The translations under genes and the position numbers were made by a program. Positions 1-20,195 of a DNA stretch of 20,406 nt are shown here, in pieces (position 1 is the stretch's first letter; every line of letters begins with the position of its first letter). Source of the DNA: a virus; the IMG/VR virus record IMGVR_UViG_3300047276_000464, positions 1 to 20,406 of that record; one strand, given 5' to 3'. The notes beneath the pieces are model-generated. The model ran no database searches and was not told the origin of the DNA. It was given only the letters and a program-made list of their open reading frames with translations.

Positions 1-2344
1 GCGATCCGGCCAGGCCGATCACCGTGGGATCACCCCACTGCGCCACCTGCACGCCAGTGCCGGCTTGCGTCCACACCGGAATGCTGCCCCCGGTGCCGCC
101 GCCCATTGTCCAGGTGCCGGTGGCCGGTGTCGGTGCATCTTCGGTGGTGCACAGCCCTGCAGGGCTGGGTGCGATCACATAGCCGACCGTGCCCGGGTTC
201 AGTGATGCACCCTTGCTCCAGGTTTCGGTGCCATCGAACACCGCAGCGAAGGCATCCAGGTGTGCCGTCACACCCGTGCGCAGGTTGTGCCACACACCCT
301 TCGGTGCTTCCCGCCAATCGGCCGGCACACCCTTCGGCTGGCTGTAGGTGAGCACCGTGGTGGGCAGCATCCGCTGAATCACATTCGGGGTGCCGCCATT
401 CCAGGCAAAGCCGCTGCCCACATCACCGGTAGTCGCCTGGCTGATGCTGGCACTGGCCTGCCAGTTGGCAGGGTTGCCGTAGGTGCCACTGACGCAGAAC
501 ACATTTGTGAAATCCCAATCGGCAGGGGCCTTGCGGATGATCACAGCACCACCTGCGCAGGTGATCGCTGCAGCCGCCACCGCCGCCGATGCTGCGCTGC
601 TGCTGCTCACTATCACCGGGGTGGCGCTGCTGTCAGTGGCGGTGCTGGTGATTCGCAGGAACTGCCCCACATCACCAGCCACCGGGGTGTAGGTGAGCGC
701 CGTGGCGCCGGTGATCGGAATCCAGGGGCCACCAGCTGCTGCTGCCCGCTCCCACTGATTCGCCACTGCCACCGGTGCCAAGCCGCCGGTGAAGGTGCCA
801 GCTGTTGCCGGCCCCCAGGCAGTGCCGGCCACTGGGCTGCCGGTTGGCAATGCCGGAGCAGCGGCAGCTGCCAGCGCAGCGCCCACAGCCCCCGTGGCGG
901 CACTGGGCACATCGATCCGGTGCGGGGTGGGGGTGTTGGCATCGGTGGCCACTGCCACCACCCGCAGGAACTTGCCGGCATCGGCAGCGGTCAGCACATA
1001 GGTGTTGCCGGTGGCGCCGGTGATCGTGCTCCAGGGGCCCGTGGCGGCCGCTGCCCGCTCCCAGCGGTAGGTGTAAGTGATCGGTGGCTTGCCTGCTGTT
1101 GCAGTGCCACCTGCAGCGGTCAGGGTGCTGCCCACCACCAGGCTGCCGGTGATCGTGGGAGCAGTGCCCGCCAGCAGCGGCACATCCGCCGGGGCGGCCA
1201 CCGTTGCAGTCGCCGCACCTAGTGCTGTTGCCTGCTGCGGCGCCGGCACCGTGGCATCGGTGGCGATCGTTTTCACCCGCAGGTGTTGGCCTTGCAGGCT
1301 GGCATCCACCACCAGTTCCAGCGGTTTGCTGGGATCAGTCGGTGCCACCGGCGCCCAGCCAGTGGTGCCATCCGCGCTGGATTCCCACACGGTCTGCAGC
1401 GTCACTGGCGCCAGGCCGCCGGTGAAGGTGCCGGGCACTGCGGTGAGGGTTTTGCCCACCTGCACCGTGCCGGTGATCGTTGGCACCGTGGCCACCTGCA
1501 GCGCAGGCGGTGCCACCACCACTTCAGCAGTGGCCTGGGTGACGGATTTCGGCGGCACTTCGGAATCGGTGCCGGTCTGCACCAGCCGGATTTCAGCGCC
1601 CAGATCCAGTGCACTGGGGGTGTAGCTCAGGCCAGTGGCGCCAGCGATCGGCCGCCACACCTTCGGCCCGCCACCGGTGGCCGGCAGGGCGATCTCCCAC
1701 TGGTAGCTGTAAGTGAACGGCCCGGTGCCGCCCGTGACGGTGCCAGGCGTTGCCGTGAGCGCCTGCAGCGGGTTGATCACGCTGGCTGCACTCAGGGTGG
1801 GCAGCGTGCCCCAGCGCAGGGCCTGCACCTGTGGCCTGCCGTGCGCATCAGGCTGCTGCGGTGCGTTGCCGCCAAACACCCACTGCCAGGTTTCGATAAT
1901 CGGTGCGGCGCCGGTATCCAGTGGCGGCGGGCCGCTGCCCTTATAGGTCGTATCAGTGGGCAGCGATGCCACCACCTTGTAGGCGTAGAAATCCTGATCC
2001 GACTCCAGCAGCGGTTCGACCGTGGTGACACTCAGCCGGTTGCCCTGATACCAGACCTGATCGGCGGTGGTGGGCTCCACCGGCAGCGTGGTGCTATCGA
2101 ACCAGAAGGTCACATCACTGGTGCTGCTGTAGCCGTCTTTATTGAAGGCAGCGTGCGGGCCTATCAGCTTGCTCACCACTGCCCCGCCGCAGTGGAAAAT
2201 CCGATCGCTGGTGACGCCGATATTTCCGGTCAGTGGATCGTATGCGCCGTGATTTTTCTGGATCAGCCAGATCGCTGGTTCCCTGAAGGCATCCACCAGA
2301 TCCTTCGCCAGCTTTGTGGCCCAGGCGCTTTGCGGTGCTGTCAT
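1..2344 (-). CDS. Ig-like repeat virion protein with neck-like N-terminus, partial (3' end outside window)
   Basis: Open from an ATG at 2344 to the left edge, 781 codons with no stop. Residues 1-130 have a globular pattern (DQVWYQGNRLSVTTVEP) resembling small head-completion or head-tail joining proteins. From about residue 180 to 590 there are four units of roughly 100 residues. The best-conserved units have PTITG..VVG.TLTA, a WERAAAA.GPW core and LRV...ATDA near the end, which is the Ig-like beta-sandwich repeat common in phage tail and surface proteins. The remainder (about 600-781) is Gly/Thr/Trp-rich and unassigned. The start overlaps the stop of the connector gene by one base (TGATG), so the two are probably translationally coupled. 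It may act at the neck or tail, displaying Ig-like domains for weak surface binding; that role is inferred. The fusion of a neck-like domain to Ig repeats is unusual. Reading frame certain, function moderate. Confidence 0.8.
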   Translation of the reverse strand, partial: MTAPQSAWATKLAKDLVDAFREPAIWLIQKNHGAYDPLTGNIGVTSDRIFHCGGAVVSKLIGPHAAFNKDGYSSTSDVTFWFDSTTLPVEPTTADQVWYQGNRLSVTTVEPLLESDQDFYAYKVVASLPTDTTYKGSGPPPLDTGAAPIIETWQWVFGGNAPQQPDAHGRPQVQALRWGTLPTLSAASVINPLQALTATPGTVTGGTGPFTYSYQWEIALPATGGGPKVWRPIAGATGLSYTPSALDLGAEIRLVQTGTDSEVPPKSVTQATAEVVVAPPALQVATVPTITGTVQVGKTLTAVPGTFTGGLAPVTLQTVWESSADGTTGWAPVAPTDPSKPLELVVDASLQGQHLRVKTIATDATVPAPQQATALGAATATVAAPADVPLLAGTAPTITGSLVVGSTLTAAGGTATAGKPPITYTYRWERAAAATGPWSTITGATGNTYVLTAADAGKFLRVVAVATDANTPTPHRIDVPSAATGAVGAALAAAAAPALPTGSPVAGTAWGPATAGTFTGGLAPVAVANQWERAAAAGGPWIPITGATALTYTPVAGDVGQFLRITSTATDSSATPVIVSSSSAASAAVAAAAITCAGGAVIIRKAPADWDFTNVFCVSGTYGNPANWQASASISQATTGDVGSGFAWNGGTPNVIQRMLPTTVLTYSQPKGVPADWREAPKGVWHNLRTGVTAHLDAFAAVFDGTETWSKGASLNPGTVGYVIAPSPAGLCTTEDAPTPATGTWTMGGGTGGSIPVWTQAGTGVQVAQWGDPTVIGLAGS
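560..1815 (-). repeat. Four tandem Ig-like domain-coding units (~300 bp period)
   Basis: The coding strand holds four tandem units of about 300 bp inside the Ig-repeat protein. The units at about 560-870, 890-1180 and 1200-1490 are most alike. At DNA level, positions 777-799 and 1410-1432 match at 22 of 23 bases, and the WERAAAA-coding segments near 1045 and 750 are also nearly identical. The fourth unit (about 1510-1815) is more diverged. This indicates repeat expansion by duplication; unit borders are approximate. Confidence 0.7.
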
Positions 2345-3084
2345 CAGCCCAGCCACCCCGTGGTGCCGACACGATCCACATAGTCGCCCCACATCCCGCT
2401 GGCCGTGGGCAGCATCCGGCTGCTGTCACTGATGCCCACCGGATACGGCATCACGAACGGCAGGCCATCCAACCTTCGACACCCACCGCCGCAGCCATCA
2501 CCTGCGCCCCTGGTGAGCACACGCGCGCTGCCGGTGGAAGGTGGCACCATCCAGCACCGCAGCAGGTCCGACAGCCACGGGAATGCACCCAGCACGCGCG
2601 GCAGCTGCGCGCCGGTGCTGGTGGTTTTGCTGGTGGTGGTGCTGCTGCTGGCCGGTGCGAAAAATTCCTGCTCCAGCTCGCCTAATTTCTGCCGCTTCAC
2701 GGCACCATTGCCGCCGCCTGCGGTGCTGGTGGTGATCGTGGCGCCGGTGCTGCCGGCCAGGGCAGGCACCAGGGCTGTGGGTGTGATGTGCAGGCTGAGC
2801 GCCAGCTGGCACACCGCCGACACCACATCACCGGGCAATGCCGTGCACACGGCTTCACCGCAGCCGCTGCTGGCCGCCAGCTTCCGCGGCCACGCCCAGG
2901 GCTGGGTGGTGCCACACTTTTCACCCCACCAGTGCAGCGACTCCAGCGCCCGGCTGGCTTCAGTGATCGCCACCTGTTTTTCAGCTGCCGTCAGCGCCAG
3001 CCACTGGGCATTCCCGAAGCTGCTGGCGAACCAGGTATCAGCATCGGCCACCGTGATGTAGCCGTTCGTATCAGGCAGGGCCAC
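2344..3084 (-). CDS. Head-tail connector, DnaT-like/gp6-like family
   Basis: A protein of 246 residues. The N-terminal half has the pattern of the phage connector family often labelled 'DnaT-like ssDNA-binding': a Tyr/Asp-rich start (NGYITVADADTWF), an alpha-helical stretch with EKQVAITEASRALES, then W-W-G-x-K and Q-x-W-x-WPR (about residues 52-67), then a PGDVVSAVCQLALSL helix (84-98). In related phages this protein forms the ring between portal and tail. Residues 110-170 are Thr/Ser/Gly-rich linker and the C-terminus is Cys/Gly-rich and unassigned. The start is GTG at 3084 with no Shine-Dalgarno. It lies two genes after the capsid gene, the usual place for connectors. Its stop overlaps the next ATG by one base. 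The DnaT label reflects family naming; a replication role is unlikely here. Confidence 0.75.
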   Translation of the reverse strand: MALPDTNGYITVADADTWFASSFGNAQWLALTAAEKQVAITEASRALESLHWWGEKCGTTQPWAWPRKLAASSGCGEAVCTALPGDVVSAVCQLALSLHITPTALVPALAGSTGATITTSTAGGGNGAVKRQKLGELEQEFFAPASSSTTTSKTTSTGAQLPRVLGAFPWLSDLLRCWMVPPSTGSARVLTRGAGDGCGGGCRRLDGLPFVMPYPVGISDSSRMLPTASGMWGDYVDRVGTTGWLG

Positions 3085-3126
3085 AGCAGCTGGCGCAGGG
3101 TGCTGCCAGGCAGTGTAGGTGCGGCT

Positions 3127-3291
3127 TCACAGCGCAACCATCAGCACCCGGAAGCCCTTCCGCTTCCAGGTCCGCACCGCTGCTCGCACTTCATCCGGCC
3201 AGTAGTCGACCACCGCGGGCCAGGCCGGTGGGCGCTGGTGCTCCGGCAGCCGATCGTCGGGTTCCAGATACACCCGCACCACCCCCAGCAT
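3127..3291 (-). CDS. Small hypothetical protein between capsid and connector
   Basis: ATG at 3291 gives 54 residues. An upstream in-frame GTG at 3342 would give 71 but lies against the terminator tract, so I prefer the ATG. The sequence begins MLGVVRVYLEPDDRLPEH and ends with a basic/hydrophobic tail (TWKRKGFRVLMVAL). There are no membrane segments or recognised motifs. The position between capsid and connector fits a minor head or neck protein, but I do not recognise it and no Shine-Dalgarno is visible. It lies downstream of a strong terminator, so it would be expressed by read-through. It could be a spurious frame, although the codon bias (G/C at third positions) agrees with the neighbours. 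Confidence 0.45.
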   Translation of the reverse strand: MLGVVRVYLEPDDRLPEHQRPPAWPAVVDYWPDEVRAAVRTWKRKGFRVLMVAL

Positions 3292-3343
3292 CGGCCTGCA
3301 GCAGCTGCTGGCACCGTAGCCGCAGCACCTGGGCCTGGGCACG

Positions 3344-3367
3344 AAAAAAGGGGCCCCGCAGGGCCCC
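3344..3367 (-). terminator. Rho-independent terminator after the capsid gene
   Basis: On the minus strand a 7-bp GC stem (GGGGCCC / GGGCCCC) with a 4-nt loop is followed immediately by six T residues. It lies 39 bases after the capsid stop. This is the only textbook intrinsic terminator in the window. It fits high capsid-gene transcription with reduced read-through into connector and tail genes. Confidence 0.85.
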
Positions 3368-3406
3368 AGGTGATCGCTGCCAGCCGCCGACTGCTGGCGT
3401 GCTGGA

Positions 3407-4585
3407 TCAGGTGTACTTCGATGTGTCGAAGGGGGTGTTCACCAGCAGGCGCACACCACCAGCGTTCTTCACATCACCGAAGGCGAAGCCCCAGTTAGCA
3501 GCAGTGCCCAGGGCAGCTGCGTCGGGGTTGCTGTTGCTGCCGCTCCAGGTGAAGCCGAACAGGTGGTAGGCGTAGTGATAATCGCAGGAAACGATGGTTT
3601 CCTTCGACAGGATGTTGCGGTCGGATTCGATTCGCAGTTCCTGCTGGAAACCTTCGGCCAGTGCACCTTCCTGGAACATCAGCACGGGATATTTTTTAGC
3701 CCCGCCAGTTGTGCCAGTTGCAATAGGCCCAAGGTTGTCAGTTACGATCACGCGCATACCACAGAACCAGGCAATGCTGGTATCTGTGATCCCCACGCCG
3801 CCGCCGCCCCATTTAATATCAGTGCCCGAACTTAGGGAATCTGAACTAAAAGTGAGGAGGCCCGATTGTTGCAGGTAGAAATACACATTGCTGTGCATTG
3901 CGATCACCCGCAGCTGATCGGCGCGCTCGCCCAGGGGTGCCTTGCCGGCGATCGCCGTGGCGGCGCTCAGGTAGTTGGCAGCAGCCGGGGCGGTGGTGCC
4001 AGTGGCAGCCACATCAGTGGTGAGGTTGGAAACACCGGTGGCGGTACTGCTGAACATCCCGGCCAGGGCCGTGAACAGCGTTTTTTCCTTCAGGCTGTTA
4101 AGCGCATCAGCCACCTGCAGGCGCAGGTGGTTCAGCGGGTCAACGCCCAGCGCCATCATCGAAATGTCGTCCGCCGCATAGGCGAAACCACGCCGCAGGA
4201 TGGGTGCCACCTGTTTCGTGGCAGCCAGGTGCTGCGGTGTGAGATAGCCGCCCTTCGACGCGCCCCAGGTGTTATTGGATTCAATAACTTCCTCGGTCGG
4301 ATTCAGGGTTTTCCAGGTGGGCACTTCCACCTGAATACCACCCATTCGGGCATTCAGCGCAGGGTGCTGAATCACCACGCCGGAGCGCAGCAGCTGGGAG
4401 CGGGCGTGCACCGCTTCAGCCACATACGCGGCGAACATAGGGTTTTTGACTGCCCCAGTGATGTCCGCCAGCTTCGTGCCACCCCACACTTCGGTGGCGT
4501 GCTGGAAGGTCTGTGCACCAGTGGGGGCTGTTCCCCACTGAGCGCCGGGCGCCTTCGTGTCAGTGTTGATATATGGAACGCCCAT
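3407..4585 (-). CDS. Major capsid protein
   Basis: A protein of 392 residues that should form the icosahedral shell. Support is the order (scaffold immediately upstream, connector downstream), the length typical of HK97-fold coat proteins, and sequence features: an N-terminal arm, a helical segment (AAYVAEAVHARSQLLRSG, about 52-69), a stretch of EVPTW...EEVIESNNT, and a large Gly/Thr-rich beta region ending in a Phe/Tyr-rich C-terminus. It resembles coat proteins found with coiled-coil scaffolds more than the protease-fused HK97 type; no protease is seen. It has the strongest ribosome binding site in the window (AGGAGG, 8 nt before ATG) and an intrinsic terminator, both fitting very high expression. 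Residues about 238-302 use A/T-ending codons unlike the rest (see findings). Exact capsid family not proven from sequence alone. Confidence 0.85.
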   Translation of the reverse strand: MGVPYINTDTKAPGAQWGTAPTGAQTFQHATEVWGGTKLADITGAVKNPMFAAYVAEAVHARSQLLRSGVVIQHPALNARMGGIQVEVPTWKTLNPTEEVIESNNTWGASKGGYLTPQHLAATKQVAPILRRGFAYAADDISMMALGVDPLNHLRLQVADALNSLKEKTLFTALAGMFSSTATGVSNLTTDVAATGTTAPAAANYLSAATAIAGKAPLGERADQLRVIAMHSNVYFYLQQSGLLTFSSDSLSSGTDIKWGGGGVGITDTSIAWFCGMRVIVTDNLGPIATGTTGGAKKYPVLMFQEGALAEGFQQELRIESDRNILSKETIVSCDYHYAYHLFGFTWSGSNSNPDAAALGTAANWGFAFGDVKNAGGVRLLVNTPFDTSKYT

Positions 4586-4593
4586 TGTGGGAG

Positions 4594-4599
4594 CCTCCT
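4594..4599 (-). promoter_or_regulatory. Strong Shine-Dalgarno for the capsid gene
   Basis: Perfect AGGAGG on the minus strand, 8 nt before the capsid ATG. Most other genes checked here have no comparable site, so it fixes the capsid start and marks it for high translation. Confidence 0.9.
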
Positions 4600-4639
4600 A
4601 GGTAAGGGTTGGGTTTAGCCGTGTTCACCCACCACTGAA

Positions 4640-5401
4640 TCACCCGCGCATCGCTTCAGCTTTCAGTGCTTTTGCTAGTTCGGGGTTTGTGGTTTCCAGC
4701 TGGAAGGCAGCGGTGAAGTTGCCTGTGCGATAGGGATTTTCCAGCCCAGGTGCCACCGATGAAGTGCCCGCCTGTGCTGGTGCGCCCATCCCGCGGGCAT
4801 TGCCCGGCGCGAAGTGATGCACCCACCCGGAACCCGGGTTGCGCAGGTTGGCCAGGTGATCGCCCAGCGGCACTTCCGCGCCACCGGCCAGCACCACTGG
4901 CTGCCCGTCATCGTTCACACGCAGTGCAGGCTGCAGCAGCCCATAGAGCTGCTCAGGCACCAGGGCATTCGCCCGGCTGATTTCCTGCAGTGCAGCTGCG
5001 CGCAGGCGATCCTGTTCAGCAGACTGCTGCAGGTTCGCCAGCTGGCCCTTCAGCTCCAGGATTTCCTGATCGCGCTGGGCGATCGTGCCTTTCGCATCAG
5101 ACCACAGCTGTTTGAACTGGCCCTGATCTTCCAGCTGTTTGGCTGCACCAGCTTCGGCAGCATTGCGCAATGCTTCCAGGTCGGCCTGGAGCTGCGCCAG
5201 TTGCTTCCGCGTGGCTTCGGCTTCACGCTTCGCATCCCGCGCCTGGCTGTTCGCCAGGTTCAGTTTGATCCGCAACCGTTCAGCATCGGCACCGCCTGAC
5301 GCATCCAGGTCTGAAGCATCGATCGGCTGATTCAGCAGTTCGGGGGGCACCGCCGCCACCGACGCAGGGGGCACGGCCACCGCTGCAGCGTCATCAGGCA
5401 T
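4640..5401 (-). CDS. Capsid scaffolding protein
   Basis: A protein of 253 residues. The N-terminus (1-40) is Ala/Pro/Asp-rich and acidic. Residues about 40-145 are a long charged coiled coil rich in Lys, Glu, Gln and Ala (for example EAEATRKQLAQLQADLEALR). The C-terminal third is flexible and ends with a basic helix (ELAKALKAEAMRG). This design, and the position directly before the capsid gene, is that of an internal scaffold that guides procapsid assembly and then leaves. A basic C-terminal helix commonly binds coat protein in such scaffolds. The ATG at 5401 has no Shine-Dalgarno. The capsid gene starts 54 bases after its stop. No protease domain is present, so it is a stand-alone scaffold. 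Confidence 0.8.
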   Translation of the reverse strand: MPDDAAAVAVPPASVAAVPPELLNQPIDASDLDASGGADAERLRIKLNLANSQARDAKREAEATRKQLAQLQADLEALRNAAEAGAAKQLEDQGQFKQLWSDAKGTIAQRDQEILELKGQLANLQQSAEQDRLRAAALQEISRANALVPEQLYGLLQPALRVNDDGQPVVLAGGAEVPLGDHLANLRNPGSGWVHHFAPGNARGMGAPAQAGTSSVAPGLENPYRTGNFTAAFQLETTNPELAKALKAEAMRG

Positions 5402-5473
5402 ACAACCGTTATGGAATAGGGAACAGGCCCACCTTAGTGCACCCGGTCACAACCGGCAGCAGCAGGGCACATT

Positions 5474-5602
5474 TCAGCCCTGGCCACGGGTTTGCTTCCG
5501 CCCGTGGTTCGGTTTGCTGCCGCGGCCCTGGCCCTGCCTGGTGCGCTTCCTGATCGGGTTCAGCCGCTGCTGGCTGGTGGGGCTGCCCTTCGGTTTCGCC
5601 AT
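5474..5602 (-). CDS. Very basic 42-residue protein
   Basis: ATG at 5602, stop TGA at 5474, 42 residues: MAKPKGSPTSQQRLNPIRKR, then Gly/Gln/Arg/Lys-rich to the end. It has 12 Lys/Arg, one His and no Asp or Glu, so its charge is extreme. A weak AGGG lies about 6 nt before the ATG. It sits 24 bases after the membrane-protein stop and 72 bases before the scaffold start, in line with the operon. Such peptides can bind nucleic acid; packaging, internal capsid or host-modulating roles are possible but unproven. It might be a chance frame, but the absence of acidic residues and the tight spacing argue for a gene. Confidence 0.5.
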   Translation of the reverse strand: MAKPKGSPTSQQRLNPIRKRTRQGQGRGSKPNHGRKQTRGQG

Positions 5603-5626
5603 CGATGCCCTGGTGCTGCAGGCAGC

Positions 5627-5929
5627 CTATGGCCCCGGGCCAGGCCCATCACCAGGCCCGCGCCCTGGCAGCTGCACCAGCAGTGCCAGCAGCACTTCCA
5701 GCCAGCGATTCAGCTGGTTTTCAGCCCGCTGCCTGGCTTCGGGGCACACATCGCGGAAGCTCAGCGGTTTGTCGGCTGTGCCCTCCCTGGCGATCGTGCC
5801 CATTTCATCGAATACGGCACGCTCACAGAACCGCAGGGCTTCGTGGGTGTAGATCACGCTGGATGCCAGCAGCACACCCAGCAGGCCCATCACGATCGCG
5901 TGCTGGCTGGGCCCGCGCGGCCACTTCAT
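5627..5929 (-). CDS. Small membrane protein, possible holin-like
   Basis: ATG at 5929 overlaps the previous stop by 4 bases (ATGA) and gives 100 residues. Residues 10-27 (AIVMGLLGVLLASSVIY core) form one clear membrane segment after a short basic N-terminus. A second amphipathic/hydrophobic helix lies at 76-88 (WLEVLLALLVQLP), followed by a Gly/Pro tail (GPGDGPGPGP). Cys35 and Cys62 lie in the intervening hydrophilic region. Size and hydrophobic segments would fit a holin or other small inner-membrane phage protein, but there is no adjacent endolysin in the window, so the lysis role is only a guess. A longer in-frame start upstream (6127) would run inside the fibre gene and is rejected because of the neat ATGA overlap. 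Confidence 0.6.
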   Translation of the reverse strand: MKWPRGPSQHAIVMGLLGVLLASSVIYTHEALRFCERAVFDEMGTIAREGTADKPLSFRDVCPEARQRAENQLNRWLEVLLALLVQLPGRGPGDGPGPGP

Positions 5930-6057
5930 CGCTGCTGTTCCTGCTGCTCCAGCAGCAGCAGGTGTTCCTTCAGGGCATCTAGGCAGGCCTGATCGATGCC
6001 GACCTGCTCCAGCAGCTGGCGGCATTCGGCTGCGGTGTCGGGCAGCTGTTCTGGCAT
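5926..6057 (-). CDS. Small Gln/Leu-rich helical protein
   Basis: ATG at 6057 overlaps the stop of the fibre gene by one base (TGATG), giving 43 residues, and its own stop overlaps the membrane-protein ATG by 4 bases. The sequence is predicted helical and acidic, ending in LKEHLLLLEQQEQQR. The overlaps on both sides strongly suggest a translated link in a coupled series. No family recognised; a small chaperone or an accessory of the fibre or membrane protein is possible. Confidence 0.6.
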   Translation of the reverse strand: MPEQLPDTAAECRQLLEQVGIDQACLDALKEHLLLLEQQEQQR

Positions 6058-8156
6058 CAGGCCACCGTTTGCCAGCGGGCCACCAGATACCCTTCGGCGT
6101 GCCCTGTTTCCAAACCGCCAGCGGCAAAGGTTTGCACCCCGAACCCTTTCATCGCGTGGGCGCCGTTCATTTTCGTGCCACCGCTGAACCGCATTGGCGT
6201 GTCGTTGCTGCTGCGGTAGCCGCCTTCCCAGTAAAGCTGCCAGAAGCCGGTGGCCGTGCGGTAGCCCTTGAACAGGAAGGTGAGCGAACTGGCCCCCCTT
6301 GCGTGGTAGCTGTCTTGCATTTTGAAGGTCCACCGTGAGCCGTGGTTGTTTTGAAATGTGGGGTTCACATCGCGGATACCACCGGCTTCATAGGTGGTCA
6401 GGTGATAGGTGTTTTCAAACCCCCGATCAACATGGAAATCGATCACTGCATCGTTGTCCTGCACTAGGTAGGGGGCAACATCGAAGTTGCCCGTGGTGAC
6501 AGTGATCGTTCCTTCGATGCAAAAGTATTTTTCAGCCACAGCCCCGCCGTTGGCTGTGGTGTCGATCCAGGCGCCACTGCCGCCGTCATAGCTGAACGCC
6601 AAAGTGCGTTCCTGAAACTTGCTCGCTGCACCCCACGACATGTTGCCGTTGGCGTCCGCGATCACAGGTTTCCCTGCGTTCCCCGGGATCCCCAGCATCG
6701 GGGTCATTGCATTCCAGGCATTGCCCTTGCTCAGGAACAGCTGGGTTTCGCCGCCGTTGTATCGGAAGGCCAGGCCGCCAGTGTCAGCCGCGGTGTTGGT
6801 TGCGCTGGGATCCTGGGCGAAATAGCCGGGAATGATCAGCTTCGATCCAGCCGCGCCGATCGTGACGCCGGAGCTGTTCACCCAGTGAGTGCCATCCCAG
6901 ATATTGAAAATCTTGCGGTTGGCATTGTTGTCGAACCACAGATCACCAGCAGCCGGTGCAGTCGGCGCCGTGGTGCCGAAGGTCATCGTGGGGCTGCCCA
7001 TCCGATGCCAGGTGCCCCCGGCCCTGGTGAACACCACCTGGGTGTCGTCACTCCAGGCCAGCGTGCCGTTCGGTGGGGTTGTCGCCAGCAGCGCCGCTTC
7101 GGTCGCATAGTGCTGGATCGGTTCTTCGATCCAGGTGCCCTGGATTCGAGCGAAGGTGCGGCCGGTGTCGGTGGCAATCGCTTCCTGGCCGTTCATCGCC
7201 CAGGTGGCTGCCCTGATGTTCGCTTCGGTGTCCTCCCAGATCGTGACGGGCCGCCAGCCGGCGCTGGTGCGCATATAGAGCACATCCACATCCAGCGCCA
7301 GCGCACGGTCGCCCACATTCGCGCCCACTGCAGCGGCAGTGTTCCCTGCCGTCACCACATCGCTCAGGTTCTGCAGTGCCGTCACCGCCACCACTGCGCC
7401 GGTGAGCGGGCCCCGCACCGTGATGGTGGCCTGGCCGGGGGTGTAATCCACCTTGAAGGTGCGCGGCAGGCCCGTGAGCAGTGCCACCACCAGCGATGCT
7501 GCCACACCAGCAGGCGGCAGGCCCGCAGGTGCTGTGACCGTTAGCGCGGTGCCATCGAAGGTGGCACCCACCACTTCACCGCCCGCTGCTGTGGCCGGGG
7601 TTGTCACCGTGAGGGTGTGCACTTCGGCCTTCGCTGCCCAGGCTTTCACCGCTGCAGTGTTTGCCAGCTCCCGCGGGCCGGTGGCACGCCAGCCGCCTGT
7701 GGCCCGCTCCCACAGCGAGCCTTCATCCAGCACCTCACCCAGGGTGCCAACCGTGGGGTTGTCACCCAGCAGATCCTGCACCGTGGGATACAGCGCAATC
7801 CCCACCCGGCTCCAGCCGGCCGGGCGCTTCACATACAGCGTGCCGGTGCTGCTGCTGATGCCGTAGCTGCCCACTGCTGAAGTGGTGTCCCGCAGCAGGT
7901 CGGCATCAGTCGCAAACTGCAGGATCGGGTTGGCGGCAATGTCGCGCCACTGCGCCCCATCCCACACATACCCCTGCCGGGTGGTGCGATCGTAAAAACC
8001 TTCGCCAGTGACAGTGCCCACTGCCGGGCGGCTGGTGCCAGTCTTGAATGCAGGGATTGCGATGCCTGTGGCATTGCCAGGGGCAAGGGCAAACATCTTG
8101 CCGTAATCAGCAGAACCGCTGTCGGCATCGGTTACAACCAGGCGGCGATCGGCCAT
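6057..8156 (-). CDS. Fibre-like virion protein
   Basis: A protein of 699 residues starting at ATG 8156. It contains several short modules typical of phage fibres and needles: GFYDRTTRQGYVWDGAQW (near 53-71), SLWERATGGWRATGP, LYMRTSAGWRPV, FTRAGGTWHRMGS and LWFDNNANRKIFNIWDGTHW (about 415-435). Each pairs an aromatic beta-hairpin with Gly/Trp. Residues 160-300 are Ala/Thr/Val-rich beta repeats. The C-terminal 170 residues are richer in aromatic and charged residues (FHVDRGFENTYHLTTYEAGG, YRTATGFWQLYWEGGYRSS) and may be the receptor-binding head. It follows the collar-domain fibre by 53 bases and overlaps the next small gene. Virion fibre role is an inference from composition, size and location; no enzyme motif seen. 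Confidence 0.65.
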   Translation of the reverse strand: MADRRLVVTDADSGSADYGKMFALAPGNATGIAIPAFKTGTSRPAVGTVTGEGFYDRTTRQGYVWDGAQWRDIAANPILQFATDADLLRDTTSAVGSYGISSSTGTLYVKRPAGWSRVGIALYPTVQDLLGDNPTVGTLGEVLDEGSLWERATGGWRATGPRELANTAAVKAWAAKAEVHTLTVTTPATAAGGEVVGATFDGTALTVTAPAGLPPAGVAASLVVALLTGLPRTFKVDYTPGQATITVRGPLTGAVVAVTALQNLSDVVTAGNTAAAVGANVGDRALALDVDVLYMRTSAGWRPVTIWEDTEANIRAATWAMNGQEAIATDTGRTFARIQGTWIEEPIQHYATEAALLATTPPNGTLAWSDDTQVVFTRAGGTWHRMGSPTMTFGTTAPTAPAAGDLWFDNNANRKIFNIWDGTHWVNSSGVTIGAAGSKLIIPGYFAQDPSATNTAADTGGLAFRYNGGETQLFLSKGNAWNAMTPMLGIPGNAGKPVIADANGNMSWGAASKFQERTLAFSYDGGSGAWIDTTANGGAVAEKYFCIEGTITVTTGNFDVAPYLVQDNDAVIDFHVDRGFENTYHLTTYEAGGIRDVNPTFQNNHGSRWTFKMQDSYHARGASSLTFLFKGYRTATGFWQLYWEGGYRSSNDTPMRFSGGTKMNGAHAMKGFGVQTFAAGGLETGHAEGYLVARWQTVA

Positions 8157-16872: not shown

Positions 16873-17310
16873 TTAGCCCGCAGGTTCCAGCGCCAGCAGT
16901 GTGATCGTGGCACCGGGCAGCTCACCTGGCCCGCACCACTGCCGCTTCACCAGCATTTCCACCAGCTGTTTGTCGTCAGCCCAGGTGCCTGATGCCGTGA
17001 TCGCATCATTCACTGCCCTGCTCAGCTTGTCCACATCGCCAGCGATCACCAGGTGCCACTGCGGTGCTGTGGGCTTCAGGTCGCCATTGGCGCGGAAGTG
17101 CGACTGCGGCCTGGCAAAGCGAAACACCATCGTGGCCTGCATCGGCCCAGTGGTGGGCCAGCCGGCTGGCCTGGCCTGCGCGCAGGCCGCGGCCACATCA
17201 CTCCGCCAGGGCGCCAGCCGCCGGTTCGATTCGATCGCCCGGCCGCGGCCCAGGTAGGTTTTGCTGCCCTGCGTGGCCGGCTTGCCGTGCACGGTGAAGG
17301 TGAACTGCAT
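16873..17310 (-). CDS. RusA-like Holliday junction resolvase
   Basis: ATG at 17310, overlapping the upstream stop by one base (TGATG), gives 145 residues, close to the usual 120-140. The N-terminus FTVHGKPATQGSK is the RusA opening strand and basic loop. The catalytic region reads GDVDKLSRAVNDAITASGTW then ADDKQLVEMLVKRQW (91-125). Asp92, Asp94 and Asp113 are candidates for the metal-binding acids. The family's PDxDNxxK pattern is altered to GDVDKLSR: Pro to Gly, Asn to Lys95, and the conserved Lys to Arg98. RusA nucleases cut branched DNA, and phages use them to resolve replication or packaging intermediates. The location just before the terminase genes suits this. Activity with the altered motif is uncertain. 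Confidence 0.75.
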   Translation of the reverse strand: MQFTFTVHGKPATQGSKTYLGRGRAIESNRRLAPWRSDVAAACAQARPAGWPTTGPMQATMVFRFARPQSHFRANGDLKPTAPQWHLVIAGDVDKLSRAVNDAITASGTWADDKQLVEMLVKRQWCGPGELPGATITLLALEPAG

Positions 17311-17549
17311 CAGTCGCTGAATGTGGTGGGTGTGTCGGTGGTGCCCTGGTAGGCGATCACTGCCGCTTCGATCGCTTCCAGTGGCTCCCACATCGCTTCG
17401 ATCAGGTGTTCATCGAAGGTGATCCAGTCGGCCCTGGTGGCTTCGATCAGATCGATGCACAGCTGCCGCCAGTCGGGTTCAGTCGCCCCCCGGGGTGGGG
17501 CAGCAGGCGGCGCTGATGGTGCCCCGGGGCCTGTGGTGTCGATCGCCAT
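17310..17549 (-). CDS. Small acidic hypothetical protein
   Basis: A protein of 79 residues, overlapping both neighbours by one base (TGATG on each side), so it is almost certainly translated. Residues 4-22 are Pro/Ala/Gly-rich (TTGPGAPSAPPAAPPRGAT). Residues 25-66 are an acidic helix (PDWRQLCIDLIEATRADWIT). No family recognised. The Pro-rich stretch is encoded by a sequence also found at 18664-18708 (see repeat entry). Confidence 0.65.
   Translation of the reverse strand: MAIDTTGPGAPSAPPAAPPRGATEPDWRQLCIDLIEATRADWITFDEHLIEAMWEPLEAIEAAVIAYQGTTDTPTTFSD
17323..17332 (-). promoter_or_regulatory. Partial copy of the leader motif before the RusA gene
   Basis: ACCCACCAC preceded by C, 12 nt before the RusA ATG, matching 10 of the 11 bases of the motif found before other genes. 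It lies inside the 3' end of the preceding gene. Spacing is longer than in the full copies, so it may be chance. Confidence 0.3.
17485..17529 (-). repeat. GC-rich 45-bp element, copy A (start of 79-residue protein)
   Basis: Plus strand reads GCCCCCCGGGGTGGG, 18 bases, then GGTGCCCCGGGG. An identical layout with the same 18-base spacer occurs at 18664-18708. The two CCCCGGGG blocks can pair with each other or themselves as hairpins. Copy A lies inside a coding sequence. Confidence 0.55.
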
Positions 17550-18076
17550 CAGCTGCTGCGCTCACTGATCGCGCGCGGCCCTGTCGGCAGCTGCTGGCCG
17601 TTGTAGCGACCGGTGAGCGCATAGCTGCGCTGCGGTGGCTCCAGCATTCGCAGCAGCACCAGCTGCGCGACGCGCATCCCGGGCCAGATCGGCACCGCCT
17701 GCAGCTGGCGGCTGTTGTGCAGCTCCAGGGTGATCGTGCCGCTGAAGCCTGGATCGATCCAGCCGGCCATCAGGTGTTCCAGCCCCTGGCGCGCCACGGT
17801 TGATTTCAGCTGCACCTGCCCGGCCAGGTGCGTGGGCATCGTGATGCGCTCCGCCGTGGCGGCCAGGATGAACTGGCCGGGGCGCAGCAGGTAGGGTTCG
17901 GCTTCGGTGTGGTCGCCCAGGTCGAAGTGCACCAGCCCGGGGCCCACCACTGATTCGATCAGGATGGTGGGCGCCAGGCGCAGGTCGATCGAAGCTGGGT
18001 TCACCAGGTGTGGATCGAAGGGCTTCACGCAGCCGGCCGCGGCCAGTTCGCGGATGTGGAAATCGGGCAGGATCAT
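17549..18076 (-). CDS. dcd: dCTP deaminase-family enzyme (dCTP deaminase/dUTPase fold)
   Basis: A protein of 175 residues, the usual length for a phage dCTP deaminase. Seen motifs: PASIDLRLAPT (about 27-37), KSTVARQGL (91-99), AGWIDPGFSGTITLELHN (104-121), PIWPGMRVAQLVLLRM (129-144), and YNGQQLPTG (158-166). Residue Glu118 in TITLEL is at the place of the catalytic Glu of bacterial Dcd (E138 of E. coli), and KSTVAR replaces KSSxAR. The enzyme turns dCTP to dUTP (or dUMP in bifunctional members), feeding thymidylate synthesis. Whether it is mono- or bifunctional, or a simple dUTPase relative, cannot be told by eye. Both ends overlap neighbours by one base (TGATG). Confidence 0.85.
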   Translation of the reverse strand: MILPDFHIRELAAAGCVKPFDPHLVNPASIDLRLAPTILIESVVGPGLVHFDLGDHTEAEPYLLRPGQFILAATAERITMPTHLAGQVQLKSTVARQGLEHLMAGWIDPGFSGTITLELHNSRQLQAVPIWPGMRVAQLVLLRMLEPPQRSYALTGRYNGQQLPTGPRAISERSS

Positions 18077-18363
18077 CAGGCGGCAGCGGTGGGCAGGGTG
18101 ACGATCACACGGTCGCTGCCGGATGTGCGGCGACCGTTGACCTTCGGGGCGGATGCCCAGCGCACGGCATAGTCGGGCAGCACCTGTTCGGCCACCTGGA
18201 AGGAATACCAGCGGCGCAGGCAGGCTTCACAGCTGCGGCGGCGCACGGTGGCGGTGCCGTCAGTGGTGGGTGAAGTGCAGATCACGCGGGTGCGGCGTGA
18301 ACCGCAGTTCGGGCAGGCGGTGGCGACAGTGGCGCGCGCACCATCAGGTGTCAGTCGGCCCAT
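18076..18363 (-). CDS. NrdR-like zinc ribbon protein, lacking the ATP-cone
   Basis: ATG at 18363 gives 95 residues; a longer in-frame start (18651) lies inside the upstream gene. A four-Cys ribbon is formed by C17, C20, C45 and C48: CPNCGSRRTRVICTSPTTDG followed by TVRRRSCEACLRRWYSF. This matches the N-terminal zinc ribbon of NrdR, including the RRRxC and RxYxF/RFTTF parts. NrdR goes on to an ATP-cone, absent here, and the remaining 35 residues are basic. It may bind DNA or RNA as a small regulator; an inserted role in control of nucleotide genes is tempting given the adjacent dcd gene, but is inference. It overlaps DUF3310 by 20 bases. Confidence 0.7.
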   Translation of the reverse strand: MGRLTPDGARATVATACPNCGSRRTRVICTSPTTDGTATVRRRSCEACLRRWYSFQVAEQVLPDYAVRWASAPKVNGRRTSGSDRVIVTLPTAAA

Positions 18364-18637
18364 TGCGTTCGGTGTGGTGGGTGGTGTGCATTGTGGCCTG
18401 GCCGGGCTGCTGCAGTGCTTCCTGCTGCACCGCCAGGCCGTGGGCACGATCGATATACCAGCGTGCCTTCGCCAGATCCTGCGGGCCGCCCTTGCGGCGC
18501 CAGCGCCACAGGTAGGCGACCGCCGACTGGGTGCAGTGATCGATGTGGGCATCGATGCCAGCCATCGCGGCCAGGGCTTCGATGCACTCCACGCTGCCGG
18601 CGGTGTAGTGGCTGGGGTGGTCGATCGGATCGTGCAT
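18344..18637 (-). CDS. DUF3310 family protein
   Basis: ATG at 18637 gives 97 residues. The family pattern is clear: DPIDHPSHYTAGSVECIEAL (about 3-22), then AVAYLWRWRRKGGPQDLAKA (39-58) followed by RWYIDRA. DUF3310 proteins are frequent in phages and act in nucleotide-related pathways in a few cases, but their function is generally unknown. The C-terminal 30 residues are a low-complexity tail partly encoded by the leader motif of the next gene (MHTTHHTE). A GC-rich element and a stem-loop lie before the ATG. Confidence 0.85.
   Translation of the reverse strand: MHDPIDHPSHYTAGSVECIEALAAMAGIDAHIDHCTQSAVAYLWRWRRKGGPQDLAKARWYIDRAHGLAVQQEALQQPGQATMHTTHHTERNGPTDT
18374..18384 (-). promoter_or_regulatory. 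Leader motif copy before the zinc-ribbon gene
   Basis: Exact 11-mer CCACCCACCAC, 10 nt before the zinc-ribbon ATG, inside the 3' end of the DUF3310 gene. A possible -10 (CACAAT) lies 5 nt upstream of the motif, closer than in other copies. It keeps a 13-nt complement to the loop at 19593-19610 because CA precedes it. Confidence 0.45.
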
Positions 18638-18713: not shown

Positions 18714-19058
18714 TCAGGCCTTCGCCTTCGCCTGACGCAGCACCCAGAACGGGTCGCCGGTGGTCAGGGTGCAGTGGCCCTGTTCCTGCAGCTCAGCCTT
18801 CAGGGTTTCGATGGCCGCTTTGCCGTGGGCATCGAAGGTGGTGGAGGTTTTGCCGGTCTGCAGGGCGAAGCTGTAGCCGTAGGCGCTGAACTTCGTGGGC
18901 ACGGTGCCGGCATCGTGCGCGGCCTGGAGCTTCGCCAGCTGTTCCTTCCTGATTTCGGTCCAGGCGGCCAGCTGCGCGGTGGCATAGGCCAGTTCGCGTG
19001 CGACCTGATCCAGATCGGCGGGCAGGGTGGAAACAGCGGCGGCGGTGGTGGGAGCCAT
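18714..19058 (-). CDS. Hypothetical protein, helical N-terminus
   Basis: ATG at 19058 gives 114 residues; the upstream in-frame start (19115) would place the promoter and leader motif inside the coding region. Residues 13-48 form a helical segment (DLDQVARELAYATAQLAAW then TEIRKEQLAKLQAAHDAG). The rest has beta character (AYGYSFALQTGKTSTTFDAH) and ends with TTGDPFWVLRQAKAKA. No family recognised. The gene follows its own probable promoter with a perfect -35 box and carries the leader motif 7 nt before its ATG. It is likely an early phage protein. Confidence 0.7.
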   Translation of the reverse strand: MAPTTAAAVSTLPADLDQVARELAYATAQLAAWTEIRKEQLAKLQAAHDAGTVPTKFSAYGYSFALQTGKTSTTFDAHGKAAIETLKAELQEQGHCTLTTGDPFWVLRQAKAKA

Positions 19059-19065
19059 TGCGTTC

Positions 19066-19076
19066 GTGGTGGGTGG
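19066..19076 (-). promoter_or_regulatory. Leader motif copy before the 114-residue gene
   Basis: Exact CCACCCACCAC, 7 nt before the ATG at 19058 and 9 nt after the candidate -10. By its place it should sit at or very near the 5' end of the transcript. Confidence 0.6.
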
Positions 19077-19085
19077 AACTTCCAC

Positions 19086-19115
19086 AGTGTGAGTGCAAGT
19101 GGGTGCAAGTGTCAA
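19086..19115 (-). promoter_or_regulatory. Sigma-70-like promoter with direct repeats in the spacer
   Basis: On the minus strand TTGACA (19110-19115) is a perfect -35, with CACACT (19086-19091) as candidate -10 at an 18-nt spacer, or TCACAC at 17. The spacer (19091-19110) is two 10-bp direct repeats differing at one base (CACTTGCACC/T type), a likely protein binding site. The upstream gene's stop overlaps the -35. Confidence 0.6.
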
Positions 19116-19417
19116 GCGGTTGCCGCGGCCAGTTCAGCCGGCGCCGGCTGCCAGGTCGGATCGAACCGCAGCGCCAGTTCATCCAGCACCGCATCGCGGT
19201 GCATCGATGACAGCACCGCCGGGGTGTAGAGCGAACGCACGGTGTAGACCGTGAAGCCCGGCACGCGCACAGGCCCTGGTGCTCCAGGCTCCCAGGCATC
19301 GGCTTCGGGCGTGTCGGTGCGCTGCAGCGTGGCCACCGGGTGGCCATTCCAGCTGATGGTGCAGATCGGGCCCGCAGGCGTTTGCTCCGGCGGGCTGAAG
19401 GCCAGCGAAGGGTGCAT
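19112..19417 (-). CDS. Hypothetical protein, 101 residues
   Basis: ATG at 19417 gives 101 residues: MHPSLAFSPPEQTPAGPI, a beta-like middle (CTISWNGHPVATLQRTDTPE) and a helical C-terminus (MHRDAVLDELALRF). No membrane segments or recognised motif. The leader motif lies 7 nt before the ATG and a -10-like TACACT follows. Codon bias agrees with the neighbours. The stop overlaps the next promoter's -35. Function unknown. Confidence 0.6.
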   Translation of the reverse strand: MHPSLAFSPPEQTPAGPICTISWNGHPVATLQRTDTPEADAWEPGAPGPVRVPGFTVYTVRSLYTPAVLSSMHRDAVLDELALRFDPTWQPAPAELAAATA

Positions 19418-19424
19418 CGGTTTC

Positions 19425-19435
19425 GTGGTGGGTGG
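19425..19435 (-). promoter_or_regulatory. Leader motif copy before the 101-residue gene
   Basis: Exact CCACCCACCAC, 7 nt before the ATG at 19417 and 8 nt after the TACACT candidate -10, matching the layout of the other two promoters. Confidence 0.6.
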
Positions 19436-19449: not shown

Positions 19450-19549
19450 GCCGGGTGCAGCGCACAGCGCCCCCGGGTGGCCTTGCTGCTGCGCTTCGAT
19501 GGTGCCCCCCCGGGCAGCAGGCCGCGGCCGGCGCCGAAGGCTGAACGCA

Positions 19550-19618
19550 CGAAGGGCCCGAACGATCACGCCCGGGCCCTTCGGCCTGGCCACCACCCAC
19601 CACGGTGAAATGGCCAGG
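19550..19618 (-). other. Two adjacent stem-loops, one with a loop complementary to gene leaders
   Basis: In minus order, the first is an 8-bp perfect stem (CCTGGCCA / TGGCCAGG, 19585-19592 with 19611-19618) with an 18-nt loop, 19593-19610. The loop reads TTTCACCGTGGTGGGTGG on the minus strand, so it contains GTGGTGGGTGG, the exact complement of the 11-mer found before four genes. The second is an 11-bp perfect stem (CGAAGGGCCCG / CGGGCCCTTCG, 19550-19560 with 19573-19583) with a 12-nt loop, one base away. If transcribed with the HTH gene upstream, an RNA of loop-plus-GC-stem form results, the layout of many antisense sRNAs. No U-run follows the second stem and no dedicated promoter is clear, so this is a hypothesis. 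Confidence 0.5.
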
Positions 19619-19713
19619 AACCGCCAGCAGTGTGGCGGTGTTGCCCTGACCGTAACCGGTGGAAGTGGCAGGCGGGTGCAGTTACACCGTGCCTGGTGCC
19701 CAGGTGCTGTGGA

Positions 19714-20178
19714 TCAGCAGCCGCCGATGAAGGCATCGAAGAAATCGGCGGCGCTCCAGGGCGGGCCGTCAGGGCGCAGCAGCGGCAGCGCCTGCTGCAG
19801 GGTGGCGCGCAGGGCGGGCGTGATCACGCCGGGCGTGGCCCAGGCCTGATCGGCCACCAGGCGGTTCAGCTGCGCCAGGGCGGCGAACAGCTTCGGCTTC
19901 GGCGTGAGCAGGCCGCGGCACAGCTCCGACCACTGGCTGTTGTGCACGGCCAGATCGGTGAAGCCGGCCGCGGCTGCGATGCGTTTCGGTGTGTCCTGGC
20001 TCCAGCCGTTGGCCTGCTGCCAGCGGGTGAGCAGGTGGCCGAACTGCAGGGCAGCGTCGGCCATTGCATCCAGGGCGGCATCACAGGCGGTGCCGGACGG
20101 CGCGGGCGGTTCGGGTGCGGGTGCGGGCTGCAGCTGCGCCAGGGCGGCAGCGATGCGATCAGCGGTGGCGGTGGCCAT
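19714..20178 (-). CDS. Probable HTH-type regulator
   Basis: ATG at 20178 gives 154 residues; a longer in-frame start at 20232 would put the promoter inside the coding sequence. Residues 1-35 are Ala/Pro-rich. Residues about 45-108 look like a helix-turn-helix region: FGHLLTRWQQANGWSQDTPK, then RIAAAAGFTDLAVHNSQWSE and CRGLLTPKPKLFAALAQLN, resembling XRE/Cro-type or homeodomain-like folds with a WSxDTPxRIA turn. The C-terminus is helical and ends with WSAADFFDAFIGGC. It has its own promoter inside a 41-bp dyad, which suggests autoregulation. HTH assignment is by pattern only. Confidence 0.55.
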   Translation of the reverse strand: MATATADRIAAALAQLQPAPAPEPPAPSGTACDAALDAMADAALQFGHLLTRWQQANGWSQDTPKRIAAAAGFTDLAVHNSQWSELCRGLLTPKPKLFAALAQLNRLVADQAWATPGVITPALRATLQQALPLLRPDGPPWSAADFFDAFIGGC

Positions 20179-20184
20179 CGGGGT

Positions 20185-20195
20185 GTGGTGGGTGG
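20185..20195 (-). promoter_or_regulatory. Leader motif copy before the HTH gene
   Basis: Exact CCACCCACCAC, 6 nt before the ATG at 20178 and 9 nt after the -10. With transcription starting about 7 nt after the -10, the motif would be nearly at the mRNA 5' end. Confidence 0.65.

Follow-up and report, generated by a model that had tools for sequence, protein, structure and literature searches.

What is the role of a short motif that recurs directly ahead of early-gene starts in an uncultured virus, and whose complement lies on the same strand in the loop of a hairpin? The window, by which we mean the whole 20.4 kb stretch of DNA analysed, is a piece of the genome of an uncultured virus that is kin to cyanophage S-2L (TerL 56 %, capsid 36 %). 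Its early block is carried on the minus strand and comprises genes for an HTH protein, gp2, gp3, DUF3310, an NrdR-like zinc ribbon, a dCTP deaminase and a RusA-like protein, with packaging and structural genes next. A sequence-only reading had reported the motif ahead of four minus-strand ATGs, and exact copies of CCACCCACCAC were located at all four. These comprise the leaders of the HTH gene (motif 20185–20195, 6 nt from the ATG at 20178), gp2 (19425–19435, 7 nt from 19417), gp3 (19066–19076, 7 nt from 19058) and the NrdR-like gene (18374–18384, 10 nt from 18363, within the 3′ end of the DUF3310 gene). A near-copy, ACACCCACCAC, lies at 17323–17333, 12 nt from the RusA-like ATG at 17310, and the orthologue in a related phage, L130, also has ACACCCACCAC. 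The HTH gene (19714–20178) matched Pfam HTH_31 with an E value of 0.00029, under the gathering score, whilst the predicted target genes also include gp2 (19112–19417), gp3 (18714–19058), the zinc-ribbon gene (18076–18363; PF22811) and the RusA-like resolvase gene (16873–17310; PF05866). DUF3310 and DCD are early genes that carry no leader motif. None of the tagged leaders in the window contains a Shine–Dalgarno sequence; the capsid leader has the Shine–Dalgarno sequence TAGGAGG and no tag, and a GGAG-type sequence also precedes the capsid gene of four further contigs (L126–L129).

The comparison set consisted of three cyanophage genomes, all of them fragments and two of them close to each other, namely the window, L130 (TerL 90 %, HTH 67 %, gp2 93 %, gp3 94 %) and the more distant L132, extended as L174 (TerL 75 %, gp2 61 %, gp3 54 %). 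Searches with the HTH, gp2 and capsid proteins for further relatives returned only a few useful contigs. In both relatives CACCCACCAC was found 2–12 nt ahead of several starts, often directly 3′ of a −10-like box. The motif was present at a matched distance from the start in five leaders of the window, six of L130 and, allowing 0–1 mismatches, five of L132. All six L130 leaders contain CACCCACCAC and five of the six read ACACCCACCAC, whilst in L132 the motif-bearing leaders, including that of the gp3 orthologue, point in both genome directions.

Cyanobacterial −10 elements usually have the core TAnnnT. This sequence occupied the corresponding slot ahead of 6 of 16 leader motifs (chance approximately 1 %), with CACACT, CACAAT or CATAAT ahead of others, and promoter-like boxes, where present, lay 5–12 nt upstream of the tags. 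Examples include TTGCCA-16-TATGCT ahead of the HTH gene (20232–20205) and TACACT ahead of gp2 (19449–19444). Given TAnnnT boxes directly before the tags, many tagged mRNAs would have their 5′ end at the tag or slightly ahead of it; the tags of the NrdR-like and RusA genes, which lie inside upstream genes, could be internal to a polycistronic mRNA.

Between the HTH gene and gp2, the complement of the motif is present once. The sequence-only reading had placed it, exposed, in an 18-nt loop closed by a perfect 8-bp stem and adjoining an 11-bp GC stem, all within 19550–19618. The loop TTTCACCGTGGTGGGTGG, holding GTGGTGGGTGG at 19593–19603, and its stem CCTGGCCA/TGGCCAGG (19618–19611 with 19592–19585) were confirmed, giving a hairpin at 19585–19618, whilst the exposure of the loop stood only in part, as a weak inner stem (CACC/GGTG) is predicted inside it and leaves the putative seed partly single-stranded only. 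The adjoining GC-rich hairpin GAAGGGCCCG/CGGGCCCTTC (19550–19583) is present with 10 Watson–Crick pairs, extended by G–U pairs. Both hairpins fall within the interval originally proposed, and a further conserved hairpin (ACCGCCA/TGGCGGT) was found upstream of it at 19639–19620. Ahead of this lies TACGGTCAGGGCAAC (19640–19654), a single match in the window, of which TAnGGTnnGGGCAnC is common to the three phages; its TAnGGT box, 2 nt ahead of GGGCA, makes it a candidate −10 element and start region. The whole element, a candidate small RNA gene, thus spans 19546–19654 on the minus strand and is conserved in L130 (592–699) and L174/L132 (9241–9338). Its predicted fold has an energy of −67 kcal/mol (z = −4.9) in the window; the L132 copy alone was unexceptional (z = −1.8). 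No Rfam family scored above its gathering cut-off (best 18.2 bits against 112).

Comparison of the three copies supported the fold. Between the window and L130, 8 of 37 pairs differ and none is broken, three being changed on both sides and five on one side to G–U. The three-sequence alignment had 98.1 % of base-pair cells paired and nine pairs changed on both sides, values that are biased towards the fold model, to which the L132 sequence had been fitted; the stem and the compensatory changes are readable by eye. These double changes comprised two of 7 pairs in the first hairpin, three of 8 in the loop-bearing hairpin (100 % of cells paired in each) and four of 15 in the GC-rich hairpin (97.4 %). 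None of 500 shuffled alignments reached either the paired-cell or the double-change value, and sliding the partners by 1–3 columns reduced pairing to 36–48 %. A covariance model whose only input sequences were the window and L130 copies, run with filters off, returned the L132 site as the top match in the 19.9 kb of L174 (E = 0.0066, next 0.2). There the seed stem is spelled differently (CCTGCCGA/TCGGCAGG) around an identical core loop. Many of the variants form G–U pairs if the minus strand is read, but A–C mismatches if the opposite strand is, which suggests that the minus strand is the one transcribed. The plus-strand alternative offered earlier, in which the motif at this site precedes an ATG, found no support, since L130 has CAG in place of that ATG and L132 lacks it.

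Two further readings of the hairpins concern the HTH transcript. The sequence-only reading suggested that the RNA is cut from it, and the hairpins might instead be only a terminator and processing structure of that mRNA. A GC hairpin does lie 3′ of the HTH gene in the window and L130, where the HTH gene is directly upstream of the RNA. The L132 copy does not follow an HTH gene and instead occupies a long non-coding region ahead of another gene, leaving processing from the HTH mRNA unsupported, and the TAnGGTnnGGGCA block is conserved shortly upstream of the first hairpin in all three copies. The GC-rich hairpin is terminator-like but lacks a U tract, and no consensus terminator was found at it; the loop, moreover, is the most conserved part of the element. 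A role confined to termination and processing is accordingly extremely doubtful. An intrinsic terminator with a U tract is common, not universal, in seed-pairing sRNAs.

Loop and leaders were also compared for independent variation in these cyanophages, and none was apparent. The loop core (GUGGUGGGUG in the RNA, GTGGTGGGTG invariant in the three phages) is identical throughout while its stem varies, and leaders and loop alike retain the core. The base beside the core shifts in step: window leaders have C and the loop G; five of six L130 leaders have A and the loop, GUGGUGGGUGU, has U; in L132, A follows the core in all five leaders and the loop has the matching U. One L132 leader matches the loop over 16 nt, with a predicted duplex of −36.2 kcal/mol (top 0.2 %). 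Exchanging loops between phages did not consistently lower duplex energy, and duplex energies are therefore no proof of species-matched pairing. Together, the compensatory changes, unchanged core and matching leaders in three phages support the original proposal of a structured minus-strand RNA with an anti-leader loop; the sequence-only reading was correct for the most part.

Chance does not explain the combination of motif and loop complement. In sequences simulated from the base order of the early region (Markov orders 1–3, 2000 runs per order), no run at any order contained four sense copies, and no more than 0.15 % of runs contained one antisense copy, with no hairpin required. A stem of at least 8 Watson–Crick pairs surrounds a random 10-mer at 0.6 % of positions, and none of the other GTGGTGGGTG copies in the same contigs has such a stem. 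When 16 loci were searched for 9-mers that are associated with starts and have their complement in a hairpin loop, this site came top in the window, L130 and L174, and the layout was absent from the other phages searched that have a related dCTP deaminase or HTH. These figures bear on whether the leader motif is a mere unstructured C/A-rich start signal used without a Shine–Dalgarno sequence, with the loop complement coincidental. The motif does sit at Shine–Dalgarno distance, and the early leaders of S-2L are also C-rich, with not one fixed motif; a plain signal has no need of a fixed 10-mer, the complement lies in the loop in 3/3 phages, and the antisense copy is rare by chance even before a hairpin is demanded. 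We consider this explanation very improbable, although the motif may serve as both start signal and target.

Several other occurrences were examined and set aside. Of 15 viral contigs with TTCACCGTGGTGGGTG, 14 lacked the multi-leader layout and were judged chance matches, and at least 120 stretches among the matches listed by a general pattern scan all lacked it. Matches from a genome pattern scan were in unrelated bacteria, and two of those contigs gave no RNA-model match. The loop-core copy that the capsid leader contains (4625–4635, minus strand GTGGTGGGTGA) has no stem, is present in the near-identical L126 and absent from L127–L129, and is probably due to chance. In L130, GTGGTGGGTG also occurs within the dCTP deaminase gene (2114–2123) with no stem, and the window gene is without that copy. 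As regards a host origin, the RNA model had no match in 386 cyanobacterial genomes, in a search that had no positive control. In S-2L, the nearest named relative, the motif set was absent and no convincing RNA-model match was obtained. The early genes of S-2L (1256–7271) carry repeated promoter-like GTGCTTTAATAG boxes, their leaders are C-rich, G-poor and without a Shine–Dalgarno sequence, and the region includes several long non-coding gaps (e.g. 5240–6009). In a more distant relative (L154, 380–1330), CACACACCAC and ACCACAC repeats occur in leaders ahead of starts; an RNA gene, if present, would lie outside the contig, and a loop matching these leaders would read GTGGTGTGTG.

Several features of the leaders would also suit a DNA operator, in which the motif is a site, perhaps asymmetric and stoperator-like, bound by the HTH protein or another phage protein, and the reverse copy is another binding site. 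Asymmetric repeats in one orientation near starts resemble mycobacteriophage stoperators, several copies coincide with predicted transcription starts, and the HTH gene adjoins the RNA. Such a site does not predict that its reverse copy should lie in a covarying RNA fold with G–U pairs, an invariant loop and a changing stem, and the copies within upstream coding sequence that have no strong promoter-like box (18384, 17333) better fit an RNA target. An operator function is hence quite unlikely.

The reading that we prefer, with a probability of roughly 0.72, is that the locus is a free-standing phage gene whose product, a trans-acting RNA roughly 100 nt long, base-pairs with the 5′ ends of many early mRNAs of the phage itself and most likely prevents their translation. 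The sequence comparisons give good support to an RNA whose loop is complementary to the leaders, whilst its expression from a promoter of its own, its pairing, the sign of its effect and its timing are predictions. In the proposed mechanism, the minus strand of 19546–19654 would yield a three-hairpin small RNA of about 100 nt whose central hairpin presents GUGGUGGGUG. Early mRNAs would begin with CACCCACCAC or carry it directly ahead of their start codons, and the RNA would pair with them in trans. The duplex would end 2–12 nt before the start codon, within the ribosome footprint and near the mRNA 5′ end, and it is from this position that we infer repression; a block of translation across the whole early set would be the most likely outcome. 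Tagged mRNAs would perhaps also be destabilized, and the capsid gene, with its Shine–Dalgarno leader and no tag, would be spared. As in seed-pairing sRNAs, the fold is conserved with an exposed seed, part of which is covered by the weak inner stem, and complementarity to several mRNAs near their start codons is conserved.

The same RNA and the same pairing could instead activate or protect: the duplex might guard the 5′ end of the mRNA against RNase E, or the leaders might serve as sponges for the RNA. For tags with a promoter-like box 5–12 nt upstream, the pairing would indeed cover the extreme 5′ end. A duplex 2–12 nt from the start codon normally hinders 30S binding, however, and we regard activation or protection as an unlikely, lesser possibility.

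Known phage RNAs offer partial parallels to the repressing RNA proposed here. The P4 CI RNA is a small structured phage immunity RNA whose loops pair with phage leader RNA. The same holds for the small structured c4 RNA of P1/P7 (PMC12197685). The candidate RNA resembles both in being structured, with a loop complementary to phage leaders. Both differ from it in acting on the transcript of one operon, by premature termination or silencing, and in being processed from the leader of that transcript, whereas in the cyanophages many separately promoted genes share the predicted target, the RNA seemingly has its own promoter, and its position differs between window/L130 and L132. VpdS of VP882 and PreS of lambda are trans-acting phage sRNAs whose seed acts on several mRNAs (PMC12197685), as predicted here; they act together with Hfq, and host RNAs are also or mainly their targets, in contrast to a dedicated tag on the phage's own early leaders. 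The antisense RNA CfrI of cyanophage S-PM2, linked to psbA (PMC12197685), is likewise a cyanophage non-coding RNA, with no motif or layout in common with the candidate.

Cluster K mycobacteriophages have a similar layout in their Start Associated Sequences (SAS), a short asymmetric motif a few nucleotides ahead of many non-structural gene starts, in one orientation and not at structural genes, with one reverse copy away from starts (PMC3203893). The cyanophage motif shares the start-proximal position, single orientation, absence from structural genes and single reverse copy. The sequences are unrelated: SAS contain a Shine–Dalgarno core and the cyanophage motif none, the window leaders carry CCACCCACCAC and depart from the 13-bp SAS consensus GGGATAGGAGCCC, and the cyanophage RNA has three hairpins, unlike the SAS hairpin. 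In the K1 phages Adephagia and Angelica, a strong hairpin on the gene-bearing strand holds the reverse SAS precisely in its loop (28661–28716 of L189, about 58,660–58,715 of Adephagia JF704105; same region of L190, Angelica HM152764). In Adephagia this is the gap between genes 92 and 93, where late transcription apparently starts according to published RNA-seq (PMC11373665). The hairpin region was found in 137 phages. Among 13 sampled, two of 16 predicted pairs changed on both sides, other variation was mostly G–U, and the loop CCTCCTATCCC was unchanged in 11.

Simple generalization to SAS phages is countered by several cases. In Hammy and Ekdilam (Amginevirus; K6) the loop departs from SAS and reads CCTCCTTCCCC, whilst Hammy leaders keep the standard SAS; Pixie (K3) and ZoeJ (K2) have no such loop, nor a reverse copy except in the leader of a minus-strand gene of ZoeJ; and some records annotate an ORF across the K1 hairpin site. 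Cluster EF Microbacterium phages (L191 and L192; AnnaSerena MH271292) have SAS-like GGGAAAGGACCCC motifs, with no reverse copy at up to two mismatches and hence no hairpin. Our literature search found no published link between SAS and an RNA. We tentatively raise the possibility that unrelated phages independently built a start tag together with a hairpin RNA bearing its complement, the K1 RNA acting as an early-to-late switch with SAS as its targets; because the two systems share no sequence, a shared device would be convergence.

To our knowledge, temporal control in phages has been described almost wholly via proteins, such as sigma factors, repressors and antiterminators. If the proposed reading is true, these cyanophages would possess a regulon run by base pairing, in which one RNA addresses a tag on many of the phage's own early leaders. 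The combination of a tag ahead of starts with its complement in a hairpin loop provides a simple search rule for further cases. It also gives a testable function for the conserved SAS, a puzzle in the mycobacteriophage field since 2011, in a model for which genetics and published RNA-seq are available. In sum, a single small RNA could act as the switch for an entire set of genes in these cyanophages, and a similar layout is present in some mycobacterial viruses.
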